Assembly (NCBI GenBank): GCA_020831885.1
Contig: JAFIFU010000012.1
Span: forward strand, 1 to 64,000
DNA: 64,000 nucleotides
DNA from: Ectothiorhodospiraceae bacterium
Lineage (GTDB): Bacteria > Pseudomonadota > Gammaproteobacteria > Nitrococcales > Aquisalimonadaceae
Reading direction: 5' to 3'
Below are positions 57,014-63,945 of this stretch, piece by piece (position 1 is the first letter of the stretch; every line of letters begins with the position of its first letter). Position numbers and translations under genes: made by a program. Under the pieces are notes generated by a model, which was not told the DNA's origin, ran no database searches, and worked only from the letters and a program-made list of their open reading frames with translations.

Positions 57014-57030
57014 TGCTACTTTCCGTAACA
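57014..57030. promoter_or_regulatory. TGTTAC-N5-GTAACA palindrome, site 1 (upstream of the cbrXAB-like operon)
   Basis: TGCTAC-TTTCC-GTAACA: right arm perfect, left arm one mismatch. It is 102 bases before the ATG of the first gene. The same 17-bp geometry recurs before and after acs. No sigma-54 promoter was found next to it. Confidence 0.6.
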
Positions 57031-57131: not shown

Positions 57132-57332
57132 ATGACACCGCCCCAGGAGTCCAGCCCGGGCTCTTACAGCCTGCTGATCTTTCTGTTCGGGCTGTTCCTG
57201 CTGGTATCGCCCTTTGCGAGCTGGTGGATGGGGGCGTTACTGCCCTGGTATTTCCCGTTCGCGCTCTGGCTGATGATCATTGTGCTGACCGCCGTGCTGG
57301 CCCGGCGCCTGGTGCATCGCAATGACCCTTGA
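57132..57332 (+). CDS. small membrane protein, CbrX-like
   Basis: 66 residues with two predicted membrane helices (about 14-31 and 38-57) and a basic C-terminus. GGAGGAGAGACC lies before the ATG, a strong ribosome site, and its stop overlaps the next start by 11 bases. A small gene, cbrX, similarly precedes and is coupled to cbrA in Pseudomonas, and I base the name on that position and layout, not on a sequence match. It may aid translation or membrane insertion of the kinase. Confidence 0.75.
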   Translation: MTPPQESSPGSYSLLIFLFGLFLLVSPFASWWMGALLPWYFPFALWLMIIVLTAVLARRLVHRNDP

Positions 57333-60255
57333 ACTGGGAACGCTGTTCAGCGCCGCGGTGCTGTACCTGCTGCTGCTGTTTCTGATAGCCCACGCCACGG
57401 AGCGGCGCTGGATCAGTACCCGGCTGACCCGGCATCCGGCGGTCTACGTGCTCTCGCTGGGTGTCTACGCCACCACCTGGAGCTACTACGGCAGCGTGGG
57501 CTTCGCCCAGACCCAGGGGCTGAATTACCTGACCATCTATCTGGGCGTGACTCTGGCCTTCGTGCTGGCGCCCGTGCTGCTGATGCCCATCCTGCGACTG
57601 ACCAACACCTACCAGCTCACCTCCGTGGCGGATCTGTTCGCCTTCCGTTTCAACAGCCAGCGGGCCGGGGTGCTGGTCACGCTGCTCATGCTGGCCGGCG
57701 TACTGCCCTATGTGGCACTGCAGATCCGCGCGGTCGCGGAGTCCACCGCCGTGCTCGCCGGCGACAGCTCCACGCCGCTCGGCGTGGCGTTCTGGTTCAC
57801 CGCCCTGGTCACCGTCTTCACGATCATGTTCGGTGCCCGCCACGTCTCGCCGCGGGAGAAACACGAGGGGCTGGTGACCGCGATCGCCTTCGAGTCCCTG
57901 ATGAAGCTGCTGGCATTGGCCCTGGTGGCCGTGGTGGCGGTGTGGATGGCCTTCGGTGGTCTCGGCGGGATGCATGACTGGCTGCGGCAGCACCCGGAAC
58001 ACCTGGAGGCCCTCTACCGGCCGGCGCTGGAGGGCCCCTGGTCCAGCCTCCTGGTCCTGGCCTTCGCCGCCGGCTTTTTGCTTCCCCGGCAGTTCCAGAT
58101 GCTGTTCACCGAAAACCTACAACCACGCCACCTGTACACCGCGAGCTGGGCGTTTCCGTTGTTCCTGCTCACGCTTGCGCTGCTGATCCCCCCGATCCTC
58201 TGGGCAGGCACGGCGATGGGGGCGGACACACCAGCCGATTACCACGTGCTCGGCCTGTCCCTGCTGAGCGGATCGCCGGCGCTGGCCATTCTGGCCTATC
58301 TCGGGGGCATCTCGGCGGCCAGCGCAATGATCGTGGTCACCACCCTGGCGATGTCCTCCATGATGCTGAACCACCTGGTGCTGCCCCTGGCCGGCCCCCG
58401 CCCGGACCGGGATCTTTACGGTTCCCTGCGCTGGCTGCGCCGCGTGATCATGGCGGCGGTCATCGCCGCCGGCTTCGGTTTCTACCTGCTGCTTGAGCCC
58501 ACCGGGGGGCTGGTGGGCTGGGGGCTGATTTCCTTTCTGGCCATGGCGCAGTTGCTGCCCGGCATCCTCGGCCTGCTGTTCTGGCAGCGTGCCACGGCGG
58601 CAGGGTTCATCGCCGGCCTGCTGGCCGGTGGCACGGTCTGGTTGTTCACCGTCCTGCTGCCTCCCGTGACCGGCACCAGCGCCATGGCCTGGCTCGGTTT
58701 CACCGCCGGCCACGGCACGCTGGCCATGGATCAGTCCGCCACCTTCTGGTCCCTGAGTCTGAACAGCCTGTTCTTCGTCGTGGGCTCCCTGATGACCCGG
58801 CCGGACCGGCAGGAGCGCGAGGCAGCCGCAGCCTGCCGGGAGCTCACACCGCTCCTGCCGGCAGGCAATGTCACCCAGCGTTCCCCGGAGCAGTTCGTGG
58901 AGCAGTTGAACAGCACCATGGGTCCGGCCGCCGCCCGGGCAGAGGTGGAGAAAGCGTTGCGGGAGCTTGGCCTGGGCTGGGAGGAGACGCGCCCCGACCG
59001 GCTTCACGCCCTGCGCACCCAGATCCAGCGCAATCTCTCCGGCATGATGGGGCCTGTGCTGGCCCGGATGATCGTGGACGAGCAACTGCAATTGGACCGG
59101 GAGAACCGCACCGCCCTGGCCCAGAACGTCCGCCTGATCGAGGACCGCCTGGAGACATCACAGACACGGTTGCGCGGCCTGGCGGCGGAACTGGACCGCC
59201 TGCGCCGCTACCACCGCCAGATCATCGAGAACCTTCCACTGGGTGTCTGCGCAGTGGCCCAGGGGGGGCGGTTGGTGCGCTGGAACCCGGCCATGGCCGC
59301 ACTCACGGGGATACCGGGAACCGATGCCATCGGGCGTCAGCTCCAGGAGCTGTCCCCTCCCTGGGGCCCGTTGCTGACCGCCTTCATCGACAGCGAAGAC
59401 AACCACCTGCCCAAGCAACCGGTGGAGACCGGATCCCGGCCGCGCTGGTACAGCCTGCACAAGGCCAAGGTGGCGCCTCCCGGTCGGGTGCGCACCGGCC
59501 ATGACACCATTCTGTTGGTGGAGGATCTGACCGAGCTGCAGTTGCTGGAGCACGAGTTGACCCACAGCGCACGCCTTGCGTCCATTGGTCGGCTCGCTGC
59601 CGGCGTGGCCCACGAGATAGGCAATCCCGTCACCGGCGTTTCCTGCCTGGCCCAGGAACTGCGGGAGGAGACCGACCCCGCCATCGTGCGCGACCATGCG
59701 GACGATATCCTGCAACTGGCCCATCGTATCAACAGCATCGTCCAGAGCCTGGTGCGCTATGCCCATGGCGGAGACCCGGAGCAACGGGGCAGCCGCCCGG
59801 TGGATCTCCATGAGGCGGTGGCGGAAGCGCTTCGGCTGACCATGCTGAGCCGTCGTGCCCGCCAGTTGCGCTTCGAGAACCGGGTACCGGTGGGCCAGAC
59901 CGTTCTCGGCGACCAGCAGCAACTGGTCCAGGTGTTCGTGAACCTGATCACCAACGCCGTGGATGCCTGCGGGGATGACGGATTGATCGCGGTGACCAGC
60001 CGCGACCAAAACGGTTGGCTGGAGGTCCATGTGCAGGACAACGGCTGCGGAATCAGCAGTGAATTCATGGACTGCGTACTGGATCCGTTTTTCACCACCA
60101 AACCCCCCGGCAAGGGCACGGGGTTGGGCCTGCCGCTGGCCTATAACATGATACGCAACATGGGCGGCGACCTGCAGCTCCACAGTGATCCTCGGGGAAC
60201 ACGGGTCACGCTGACGCTGCGCGCCTGTCGCCAGCAACAACCGGAGGAGGCCTGA
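57322..60255 (+). CDS. CbrA-like sensor histidine kinase with N-terminal sodium:solute symporter domain
   Basis: 977 residues, close to Pseudomonas CbrA (983). About residues 1-495 form an SLC5-type symporter domain with about 13 membrane segments (YATTWSYYGSVGFAQTQG, LLPRQFQMLFTEN). A cytosolic linker is next, then PAS (about 630-740), HisKA with His764 in GVAHEIGNPVTG, and HATPase (NLITNAVDACG, VQDNGCGISSE, FFTTKPPGKGTGLGLPLAY). It probably couples nutrient uptake or binding to carbon/nitrogen control. The ligand is unknown (histidine is reported for CbrA). It lies 76 bases before the response-regulator gene. Confidence 0.9.
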   Translation: MTLELGTLFSAAVLYLLLLFLIAHATERRWISTRLTRHPAVYVLSLGVYATTWSYYGSVGFAQTQGLNYLTIYLGVTLAFVLAPVLLMPILRLTNTYQLTSVADLFAFRFNSQRAGVLVTLLMLAGVLPYVALQIRAVAESTAVLAGDSSTPLGVAFWFTALVTVFTIMFGARHVSPREKHEGLVTAIAFESLMKLLALALVAVVAVWMAFGGLGGMHDWLRQHPEHLEALYRPALEGPWSSLLVLAFAAGFLLPRQFQMLFTENLQPRHLYTASWAFPLFLLTLALLIPPILWAGTAMGADTPADYHVLGLSLLSGSPALAILAYLGGISAASAMIVVTTLAMSSMMLNHLVLPLAGPRPDRDLYGSLRWLRRVIMAAVIAAGFGFYLLLEPTGGLVGWGLISFLAMAQLLPGILGLLFWQRATAAGFIAGLLAGGTVWLFTVLLPPVTGTSAMAWLGFTAGHGTLAMDQSATFWSLSLNSLFFVVGSLMTRPDRQEREAAAACRELTPLLPAGNVTQRSPEQFVEQLNSTMGPAAARAEVEKALRELGLGWEETRPDRLHALRTQIQRNLSGMMGPVLARMIVDEQLQLDRENRTALAQNVRLIEDRLETSQTRLRGLAAELDRLRRYHRQIIENLPLGVCAVAQGGRLVRWNPAMAALTGIPGTDAIGRQLQELSPPWGPLLTAFIDSEDNHLPKQPVETGSRPRWYSLHKAKVAPPGRVRTGHDTILLVEDLTELQLLEHELTHSARLASIGRLAAGVAHEIGNPVTGVSCLAQELREETDPAIVRDHADDILQLAHRINSIVQSLVRYAHGGDPEQRGSRPVDLHEAVAEALRLTMLSRRARQLRFENRVPVGQTVLGDQQQLVQVFVNLITNAVDACGDDGLIAVTSRDQNGWLEVHVQDNGCGISSEFMDCVLDPFFTTKPPGKGTGLGLPLAYNMIRNMGGDLQLHSDPRGTRVTLTLRACRQQQPEEA

Positions 60256-60331: not shown

Positions 60332-61681
60332 ATGGCACGCATTCTGATTGTTGAAGACGAGGACATCATTCGCCGCTCCCTGCGGCGGCTGCTGGAGAGG
60401 CATGGCCACCAGGTGAGCGACGCCGCTTCGGTGGAGGAGGCGACCGCCACCTGCGACCCCACCAACGCCGACCTGATCATCGCGGATCTGCGTCTCCCCG
60501 GGGAGGAAGGCACACGCATGCTGGATCTGGCCCCGGAGGTACCCACCATCATCATGACCAGCTACGCCAGCGTGCGCTCGGCGGTGGACGCCATGAAACT
60601 CGGCGCGCTGGACTATGTCGCCAAACCGTTCGATAACGACGACCTGCTGCTTACCGTGGAGCGGGCCCTGAATGAATCCCGCCTGCGACGGCAGAACGCC
60701 GCGCTGAAGGCGGATGTGGCCCGTGCGTATCCGGTGGCGGGCATGGTGGGCGAATCCCCGGCCATGCAGGCGGTGATGGAACGGATCACACGGGTGGCGC
60801 CCACGGACACGACGGTGCTGATCCTGGGTGAGTCCGGAACCGGCAAGGAACTTGTCGCCCGGGCCCTGCACGAGCACAGCGAACGCCGGGACGGCCCCTT
60901 GATCGCGGTGAACTGTGCCGCCATTCCGGATTCCCTGATCGAGGCCGAACTGTTCGGCCACGAGAAAGGAGCATTCACCGGTGCTGTGGGCGCCCGGCAG
61001 GGCCTGGTGGAGGCCGCCGACGGCGGCACCCTGTTCCTGGACGAGATCGGCGAACTCCCCCCGGCAGCGCAGGCGCGCCTGCTCCGCGTGCTCCAGGAGG
61101 GCGAGATCCGCCGGGTCGGTTCCCCCCGCTCGCGCAAGGTGGACGTACGCCTGATAGCCGCCACCCATCGGGATCTGGCCAAACGGGTCAGGGAAGGCCA
61201 GTTCCGCGAGGATCTCTATTTCCGCATCAATGTCATGGAGATCCGCCTGCCTCCCCTGCGGGACCGGGGGGACGACATTCTGCTGCTGGCCCGACATCTT
61301 CTGGAGCGGGCCTGCCAGCGAATGAAACGGCCGCCCCTGCAGTTCAGCAGGGATGCATTGGAGCGCCTGCATGGCTACAGTTGGCCGGGCAACGTGCGGG
61401 AAATGGAGAACGCCATCGAGCGGGCCGTGATTCTGGCGGATGGCGCCTGGGTCACGGCGGAGTTGCTGGGGCTGTCCGGACAAGCGGAGGAACCCCGTGC
61501 TGCGCTACCGGCCGACCTGTCGTTGGAGGACTACTTCCGTCGCTTCGTGCTGGAACACCAGCAGCACTGTACCGAGACCGAGTTGGCGCGCCGGCTCGGC
61601 ATCAGTCGCAAGGCACTGTGGGAAAAGCGCCAGCGACTGGGGATTCCCCGCCCACGGGCGCATCGCGGCGCCCCCGGATAA
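60332..61681 (+). CDS. CbrB-like NtrC-family sigma-54 response regulator
   Basis: 449 residues. Receiver with phospho-acceptor Asp52 ([10 protein letters not shown]) and K98, sigma-54 AAA+ domain with Walker A GESGTGKE (166-173) and GAFTGA (213-218) for contacting sigma-54, and a C-terminal Fis-type HTH with [22 protein letters not shown]. It is the cognate partner of the upstream kinase by position. The candidate TGTTAC-N5-GTAACA sites around it fit a Fis-type HTH binding a palindrome, and a matching sigma-54 promoter lies before acs. This differs from the LuxR-type CrbR that controls acs in Vibrio. Confidence 0.93.
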
Positions 61682-61700
61682 GGCGGTGAGGAGAATCCCG

Positions 61701-61717
61701 TGTCACCCATGGTAACA
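61701..61717. promoter_or_regulatory. TGTTAC-N5-GTAACA palindrome, site 2 (acs enhancer candidate)
   Basis: TGTCAC-CCATG-GTAACA: right arm perfect, left arm one mismatch. It lies 66 bp upstream of the -24 box of the acs sigma-54 promoter, a normal enhancer distance, and 20 bases after the regulator gene's stop codon. Confidence 0.65.
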
Positions 61718-61782
61718 ACCACAAGGGCGTGGACCGGACCAGAGCTCGCTGCCGCCTACTGCATTCAGTGACTTGAGGCAGC

Positions 61783-61798
61783 TGGCAAGCGGCTTGCT
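61783..61798 (+). promoter_or_regulatory. sigma-54 promoter of acs
   Basis: TGGCAAGCGGCTTGCT matches the -24/-12 consensus TGGCAC-N5-TTGCA/T, with GG and GC exactly 10 bases apart. It leads into a leader of about 115 bases before the acs ATG. The enhancer-binding regulator gene is immediately upstream. Confidence 0.75.
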
Positions 61799-61922
61799 TA
61801 AACTATTGGTAAAAGGCCCGCCACACGCATGCCGTGAAGGGCCGGGAATTCGATCATTTCATTCAAGCGGAGCCCGGCGGGTACCGCCCCGCCATGGGCG
61901 CAGCCAATCAGGAGGAGTTCAG

Positions 61923-63860
61923 ATGTCCGACAGCAAGGTTTACCCCGTTCCGGCCGAGGTGGCCCGTGAGGCCCGGATCAGTGAGTCGGAATACAAACGG
62001 ATGTACGAGCGTTCGCTGGAGGAGCCGGATGCGTTCTGGGCGGAGCAGGCGGAGCGGTTGGACTGGTTCAAGCGCTGGGACAAGGTCAACGACTCGGATC
62101 TCGCTGAGGGGCGGATTCGCTGGTTCGAGGGCGGCAAGCTGAACGCGGCGTACAACTGCCTGGACCGTCACCTGGAGCGTCGGGGGGATCAGACGGCAAT
62201 CATCTGGGAGCCGGACGACCCGAAGCAGGATGCCGAGCACATCAGCTACCGGGACCTGCACGAACGGGTCTGCCGCTTTGCCAATGCAATGAAGGCCCGG
62301 GGCGTGAAGAAAGGCGACCGGGTGTGCATCTATCTGCCCATGATCCCGGAGGCGGCGGTGGCGATGCTGGCCTGTGCCCGGATCGGCGCAATCCATTCGG
62401 TGGTCTTCGGCGGCTTCTCCCCGCAGGCGCTGCAGGACCGCATTCAGAATGCCGACTGCCGCGTGGTGGTTACCGCCGATGAGAGTGTGCGCGGTGGGCG
62501 CCAGTTCCCGCTGAAAACCAATGCCGATCAGGCGCTCAAGCAGTGTCCGGGCGTGGAGACGGTGTTCGTGGTGCAGCGCACCGGCGGCAAGGTGGAGTGG
62601 CAGGACGGGCGCGACGTCTGGTACCACGAGGCGGTGGCCGCTGCCTCGGCGGACTGCCCGGCGGAGGAGAACGACGCCGAAGACCCGCTGTTCATCCTCT
62701 ACACCTCCGGCTCCACCGGCAAGCCCAAGGGGGTGCTGCACACTACCGGAGGCTACATGCTGGGCGCGAGCCTCACCCACGAGTATGTGTTCGACTACCG
62801 CGAGGGCGAGGTGTACTGGTGCACGGCGGACGTGGGCTGGGTGACCGGGCACAGCTACATCGTCTACGGTCCGCTGGCCAACGGCGCCATCAGCCTGATG
62901 TTCGAGGGCGTGCCCACCTACCCGGATGCGGGTCGGTTCTGGGAAGTGGTGGACAAGCACCGGGTGTCGATCTTCTACACCGCGCCGACGGCGATCCGGG
63001 CCCTCATGGGACAGGGGGACGATTTCGTCAAGCGCCATAAGCGCAGCTCGCTGCGGCTGCTGGGCACGGTGGGCGAGCCCATCAATCCCGAGGCCTGGGA
63101 GTGGTACTACAACGTGGTGGGCGACGGCCGTTGCCAGATCGTGGACACCTGGTGGCAGACGGAGACCGGCTCCATCATGATCACGCCGATCCCCGGCTGC
63201 ACGACGCTCAAGCCCGGCTCGGCGACGCGGCCGTTCTTCGGTGTGGAGCCGGTGCTGGTGGACAACGAGGGCCGGCACCTGGAAGGGGTGGCCGACGGCA
63301 ACCTGTGCATCGCGAGGAGCTGGCCGTCGATGATGCGCACCGTCTACGGCGATCATCAGCGCTTCATGGAGACCTATCTCTCCACCTACAAGGGCATGTA
63401 CTTCACCGGGGACGGGGCGCGACGCGACGCCGACGGCTATTACTGGATCACCGGGCGTGTGGACGACGTGCTCAACGTCTCCGGTCACCGTATGGGTACG
63501 GCGGAGATCGAGAGTGCGCTGGTGCTGCACCCGAAGGTGGCCGAAGCAGCAGTGGTGGGCTACCCCCATGATGTCAAGGGACAGGGGATCTATGCCTATG
63601 TCACTCTCATGAGCGGCGTGGAGCCCACTGACGAACTGCAGAAGGAACTCCACGATCTGGTACGCAAGGAGATCGGCGCCATCGCCAGGCCGGACTTCAT
63701 CCAGTGGGCCCCGGGCCTGCCGAAGACCCGCTCCGGCAAGATCATGCGGCGCATCCTGCGCAAGGTCGCCTGCAACGAGCTGGAGAACCTGGGGGATACC
63801 AGTACCCTGGCCGACCCGGCCGTGGTGGATGATCTGATCGCCCATCGCGGAAACCGGTAA
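61923..63860 (+). CDS. acs: acetyl-CoA synthetase
   Basis: 645 residues. AMP-forming acetate activation. ATP loop [11 protein letters not shown] at residues 260-270, [38 protein letters not shown] and the regulatory acetylation lysine K606 in [13 protein letters not shown]. The GWVTGHSY acetate pocket has the tryptophan-type Acs features. AGGAGGAG precedes the ATG at 61923. Control by the neighbouring sigma-54 system is inferred from the promoter. No actP is in the window. Confidence 0.98.
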
Positions 63861-63906: not shown

Positions 63907-63945
63907 CGTTACCGCCCGTAACATGCCACGTGTTGTTCGGTAACA
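63907..63945. promoter_or_regulatory. TGTTAC-N5-GTAACA palindrome, site 3, plus a half-site
   Basis: CGTTAC-CGCCC-GTAACA at 63907-63923 (left arm one mismatch) and a second GTAACA at 63940-63945, 22 bp from the first, about two helical turns. A gene or small RNA transcribed past the right edge is the likely target. The rest of the window (63946-64000) shows no gene or clear promoter. Confidence 0.6.

Follow-up and report, generated by a model that had tools for sequence, protein, structure and literature searches.

The acetyl-CoA synthetase gene acs is very probably, judging from sequence, a direct target of phosphorylated CbrB (CbrB~P) and sigma-54, and its promoter occupies the slot that holds crcZ in Pseudomonas. 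The gene lies in the window, by which we mean the whole 64,000-nt stretch of DNA that was analysed. The literature presents CbrAB as confined to Pseudomonadaceae and as working for the most part through the small RNA CrcZ (PMC8871633). We find CbrAB to be wide in Gammaproteobacteria, with the same promoter slot placed before acs or other acetate-type genes. What is new is that CbrAB and sigma-54 are apparently wired straight to acetate genes from this slot; in the open-licence literature we found no paper that deals with acs beside cbrB or with CbrB binding at acs. The features of the locus are as follows.

57014..57030, + strand: CbrB-type palindrome TGCTACTTTCCGTAACA upstream of cbrX-cbrA, one mismatch
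57132..57332, + strand: cbrX-like small membrane-peptide ORF, 66 aa, overlapping the start of cbrA, positioned as in Pseudomonas
57322..60255, + strand: cbrA, SLC5-STAC-PAS-histidine kinase, 977 aa (Pfam HisKA/HATPase_c/PAS)
60332..61681, + strand: cbrB, NtrC-family response regulator and sigma-54 activator, 449 aa (Response_reg and Sigma54_activat)
61701..61717, + strand: palindrome TGTCACC-CAT-GGTAACA, predicted CbrB binding site (upstream activating sequence) of acs
61783..61798, + strand: predicted sigma-54 -24/-12 promoter of acs, TGGCAAGCGGCTTGCT, 11/12 to consensus and in the same place in relatives
61808..61922, + strand: predicted 5' leader of acs, about 115 nt, without CA (AANAANAA) motifs
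61923..63860, + strand: acs, acetyl-CoA synthetase, 645 aa (TIGR02188, 1048 bits against a cut-off of 725)
63907..63945, + strand: third CbrB-type site CGTTACCGCCCGTAACA, with a further GTAACA after 16 nt, before the operon starting at 64014

By synteny, neighbouring genes and sequence, the locus is the CbrX-CbrA-CbrB orthologue of Pseudomonas. gluQ lies upstream of cbrX, which gives the order gluQ-cbrX-cbrA-cbrB as in Pseudomonas, where cbrX is a short ORF upstream of cbrA (PMC8871633). An end-to-end alignment with Pseudomonas CbrA gives identities of 49% in SLC5, 36% in the STAC region and 45% in the PAS-kinase part. Pfam SSF has no match on the sensor part of CbrA (window 57322–58900) even at an E-value of 10; the transporter part is recognised by this alignment despite the silence of the Pfam model. 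The lysine that stands in place of the Na2 site in CbrA, K196 (PMC13022988), is kept. The pocket positions S53, A56 and F71 are T, S and Y here. CbrB is 56–61% identical to its closest named relatives, the CbrB proteins of Pseudomonas, Halomonas/Halomonadaceae and Cellvibrionaceae. Its HTH hardly differs from the one in Pseudomonas, and its EKGAFTGA loop is intact, as is the GAFTGA loop of all CbrB proteins examined. The locus thus encodes the parts that define CbrAB, namely a regulator with a receiver domain, a GAFTGA activator domain and an HTH, and an SLC5-STAC-PAS-histidine kinase sensor beside it. An earlier note on this DNA had read the gene upstream of acs as encoding a CbrB-type enhancer-binding protein, and the domains and neighbours bear this out. 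By its TIGR02188 match the acs product is a genuine acetate-CoA ligase, and it is 43% identical to its best paralogue in the genome.

The predicted promoter TGGCAAGCGGCTTGCT agrees with TGGCACG-N4-TTGCW at 11 of 12 defined positions. GG (61784–61785) and GC (61796–61797) stand in consensus context and in exact -24/-12 register, as the earlier note had proposed, and the register predicts transcription to begin at 61808–61809, ahead of an acs ATG (61923) that is preceded by AGGAGG. Both rpoN and an enhancer-binding protein are encoded in the genome, and every one of the 38 genomes of the order with completeness of at least 90% and contamination of no more than 5% has rpoN. Across the 64-kb window, two one-mismatch sigma-54 matches were seen against 0.83 expected, which is near chance, so a window-wide motif search is not significant and comparative evidence is needed. 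When only the 241-bp cbrB-acs intergenic region is considered, the TGGCAAGCGGCTTGCT match and the palindrome at 61701–61717 each have P ~0.003, and the pair was never equalled in 300 dinucleotide shuffles of the region. We call a sigma-54 promoter at acs because of its position and conservation, not motif score alone. A sigma-70-type site was sought at 61600–61960 and a terminator between cbrB and acs; neither turned up.

The palindrome ends 65 nt before the -24 element, and its place upstream, at an enhancer position, had been correctly noted before. It differs from TGTTAC-N5-GTAACA by a single mismatch (TGTCAC), so that its arms otherwise equal the published CbrB half-sites TGTTAC and GTAACA. 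The Pseudomonas consensus is the non-palindromic TGTTAC-N12-14-GTAACA-N15-19-GTAACA (PMC8871633). Unlike that arrangement, the half-sites at acs are separated by N5 rather than N12–14, and the third subsite is absent from the acs promoter of the window. From its half-sites, conservation and genome-wide rarity, the palindrome is predicted to be a CbrB site.

By its relatives the organism is a gammaproteobacterium. Conservation in these relatives extends to both elements. Among relatives from the order whose locus reads that far, acs is almost always the next gene after cbrB; the exception (L099) has a DUF294-type gene in place of acs. We compared 30 cbrB-downstream regions, from the order and the wider class, with dinucleotide shuffles. 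A sigma-54 site matching at least 10/12 positions occurs in 21 of the 30, against 0.37 expected in shuffles, and the N5 palindrome, up to two mismatches being allowed, in 27, against 0.18. The palindrome followed by a sigma-54 site within 40–90 bp is found in 23 of the 30 (0.02 expected), and the shuffles never gave more than one such region.

Some relatives with the cbrB-acs arrangement have no good sigma-54 site: L085, L086, L091 and L094, which belong to the window's own family, L100, family f5 and genus g9. Loss of rpoN or of GAFTGA was rejected as the cause, since both are present in the relatives without a -24/-12 site. A second, strongly conserved promoter-like element, TGCTAGGCT, lies closer to acs, 67–195 nt before its ATG, in about 14 relatives (most of L084–L097), and in family f5 (L104, L108–L110) the sigma-54 site is replaced, with a TGCTAT[GC]CT element accompanying the CbrB half-sites. 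Both sequences are probably extended -10 elements of a second promoter. The TGCTAGGCT-type element is absent from the window and from its nearest relative, L083, both of which have the sigma-54 site only. Given the relatives that lack a sigma-54 site or carry a second element, sigma-54 control of acs would be frequent without being general, and a change of sigma factor at this gene may be under way in the lineage. In the small genomes of genus g9 (L106, L107), only 55 nt separate cbrB from acs; CGTTACATTCGGTAACC stands there just ahead of the ribosome-binding site, a place that rules out an enhancer role for any promoter within the gap, and it could be a relic or a site of repressor type.

Sites of this kind are rare elsewhere in the genome. 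Only four sequences with at most one mismatch to TGTTAC-N5-GTAACA occur in its 4.13 Mb, starting at 57014, 61701 and 63907, all at the cbrAB-acs locus, and at position 32541 of contig C73. The palindrome at 57014 is a probable autoregulatory site for cbrX-cbrA, and 13 of 14 family genomes have a cbrX-side palindrome 3.18–3.35 kb upstream of where cbrB starts. The C73 site, which has a weaker tandem copy, lies 53 bp before the sigma-54-like AGGCACGATTCCTGCC and about 105–110 bp before a DUF294/CBS/cNMP-type gene, which is followed by a VC_2705-family sodium/solute symporter gene. We label the first of these genes DUF294 from 56–83% identity to same-position relatives and from likeness to Pfam-called DUF294 proteins. 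Outside acs, this is the only strong site in the genome with a sigma-54-like motif, and it stands at an acetate-uptake-type operon. Weaker palindromes in C15, inside a fusA-like ORF, and in C22, near rlmE-like and ftsH-like ORFs, were set aside as having no convincing sigma-54 site.

The motif was defined from the window, and the other genomes are independent of it. Across 14 family genomes there are 56 sites with at most one mismatch, against 28 for a reversed control. By our own assignment of targets, 40 of the 56 lie just upstream of cbrX (13), acs (9), DUF294 genes (9), an operon for a response regulator (RR) and an SLC5 kinase (6) or a second DUF294-like gene (3). DUF294 promoters of the family mostly share a like geometry, with a sigma-54-like site 50–53 bp past the palindrome. 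No sigma-54 site was found at the cbrX and RR palindromes, so CbrB may act in other ways too. The regulon here appears to be acetate activation plus uptake, unlike that of CbrAB-crcZ in Pseudomonas. A conserved CbrB-type palindrome also stands before a small 126-aa gene in genus g4 (L222, L223 and possibly L226), near a cobalamin adenosyltransferase-like gene and outside the acetate gene set.

The third site of the window, at 63907, precedes an operon just beyond it (C114:64014–69488, L176). This operon encodes a response regulator with a single receiver domain and no HTH (64014–64382), a fusion of an HK-like part with a DnaQ-type exonuclease, a small membrane protein and a second, CrbS-like SLC5-histidine kinase (66699–69488, 929 aa) 2.8 kb past acs. 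Other family genomes have the same site ahead of this operon, and where the RR-SLC5-kinase operon lies elsewhere, in other genera, the CbrB-type site is kept. With a second SLC5-kinase operon after acs, acetate sensing may have two inputs.

Several other accounts of acs expression were weighed against direct control by CbrB and sigma-54. Transcription could depend mainly on a sigma-70 promoter or on read-through out of cbrAB, with CbrB and sigma-54 merely adding to it. The second elements of about 14 relatives and of family f5, the lack of a detected cbrB-acs terminator and the 55-nt gap of g9 all speak for such an arrangement, but the window and L083 carry no TGCTAGGCT element, the searched interval around the acs promoter yielded no sigma-70-type site and the sigma-54 pair is kept in most of the regions compared; we consider this account rather unlikely, though it deserves serious weight. 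Much the same pair conservation answers the suggestion that the -24/-12 match is a chance occurrence in a GC-rich intergenic region. The number of matches expected across the window makes that suggestion natural, but the position and register of the site relative to the palindrome are constant in many genera, at a frequency that shuffles do not approach, which leaves coincidence very improbable.

Control by a CrbR-type regulator, with the palindrome serving as an ACTU motif, also seems improbable, although somewhat less so than coincidence. A second SLC5-histidine kinase does lie past acs, and ACTU is likewise an inverted repeat of about 17 bp at acs promoters (PMC5715377). However, the response regulator beside that kinase has no HTH, no LuxR-type gene was seen in the kinase's neighbourhood, and published ACTU sites such as TACTACCATCGTCGAAT are unlike TGTTAC-N5-GTAACA. 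ACTU moreover adjoins an RpoD promoter, whereas here a sigma-54 site follows the palindrome. The combination typical of CrbS/CrbR control, a LuxR-type CrbR with ACTU and an RpoD promoter at acs, was not found at the locus. The promoter might instead make a CrcZ-like RNA from which acs is merely read through, since precisely this slot is taken by crcZ in Pseudomonas and by crcZ-like genes in Halomonas and Cellvibrionaceae. Yet the stretch from promoter to ATG is short, contains no CA motifs and shows no terminator, and a search at the cbrB-acs locus gave no Rfam CrcZ match, so this account retains only the slightest probability.

Direct control by CbrB and sigma-54 suggests the following course of events. 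CbrA would sense a signal through its SLC5-STAC-histidine kinase architecture and phosphorylate CbrB. CbrB~P would then bind 61701–61717 through the TGTTAC/GTAACA half-sites, and its GAFTGA loop would contact sigma-54 RNA polymerase parked at 61783–61798. ATP hydrolysis would open the promoter, giving a presumably sigma-54-dependent acs mRNA from about 61808. Bending of the acs promoter DNA by IHF is plausible, and IHF is needed at crcZ (PMC3480352). CbrB probably drives the operon of the DUF294 gene and VC_2705-family symporter as well, and probably controls its own cbrX-cbrA-cbrB operon and the second SLC5-kinase operon. Acetate or acetyl-CoA status becomes a candidate for the elusive CbrA signal.

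The wiring of acs to CbrB and sigma-54 that we infer shares with CbrAB-crcZ of Pseudomonas the regulator pair, the gluQ-cbrX-cbrA-cbrB order, the slot, the half-sites and a sigma-54 promoter. It differs in the transcript, which there is the CA-rich small RNA CrcZ and here the acs mRNA, and in the half-sites, which are N12–14 apart there and form an N5 palindrome here. In P. aeruginosa, CbrB is needed for acsA expression and for growth on acetate, and it acts through CrcZ, Crc and a CA motif in the acsA mRNA (PMC3480352). The Pseudomonas path thus runs from CbrB to CrcZ, which counters Crc/Hfq, which in turn represses acsA. Here, by contrast, acs has a direct predicted CbrB site and no CA motif; as the acs slot is the positional equivalent of the Pseudomonas crcZ promoter, the branch from CbrB to acs would be direct, without an RNA.

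The second system for comparison is CrbS/CrbR (MxtR/ErdR) of Vibrio and Pseudomonas. In P. fluorescens, the CrbR regulon includes acs, actP and a putative signal-transduction protein (PMC5715377). An SLC5-STAC sensor kinase stands over acs and acetate-uptake genes there and probably here too, and the two gene sets overlap. We take PFLU5625, putatively, to be a member of the DUF294 family. CrbR is of LuxR type and works with the ACTU motif and sigma-70, whereas the regulator here is of NtrC type and is paired with a sigma-54 site. The earlier note had already, and rightly, set the LuxR-type CrbR against a CbrB-type, sigma-54 logic at acs. Two regulator classes without relation to each other would thus serve one set of enzymes, each under an SLC5 sensor kinase of related type.

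The slot after cbrB differs among lineages. In Pseudomonas, Halomonas/Litchfieldella and Cellvibrionaceae, it contains half-sites, a sigma-54 site, a stretch rich in CA motifs and then a pcnB-type gene, and Rfam CrcZ is called in three Pseudomonas-type loci. In the window's order, each region after cbrB has 0 or 1 CA motifs. In other gammaproteobacterial families, cbrB is followed by acs, by a gene of the DUF294 type or by one for an SSF symporter, and several of these loci share the promoter pair. Direct control of a crcZ-type small RNA, which was not found at this locus, is a trait of the Pseudomonas regulon and not of the protein family. In a tree of CbrB, the protein of the window groups with gammaproteobacterial CbrB, apart from the outgroups. 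A single nested clade (10 rows, 8 of them crcZ-linked, support 100/99) takes in the crcZ-linked proteins, and linkage to acs, DUF294 and SSF genes appears on several other, deeper branches of a backbone with moderate support and an uncertain root. It is possible, at slightly less than even confidence, that the earlier function of gammaproteobacterial CbrAB was to control acetate genes (acs, DUF294, SSS symporter) directly together with sigma-54, and that the CrcZ-Crc branch of catabolite repression in Pseudomonas came later, by replacement of the gene behind this promoter. The locus opens to test how a promoter acting directly on metabolism and a carbon-hierarchy switch built on RNA could have traded places beneath one conserved sensor.

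Five loci outside Pseudomonadaceae, L002 and L009 (Halomonadaceae) and L004, L006 and L008 (Cellvibrionaceae), have, after cbrB, CA-rich crcZ-like genes below the Rfam CrcZ threshold, accompanied by CbrB half-sites and sigma-54 promoters. Crc was considered as a yes/no marker and set aside: the Crc homologue of the present genome is 42% identical, against 86–89% within Pseudomonas; that of Halomonas, which has a crcZ-like gene, reaches only 47–49%.
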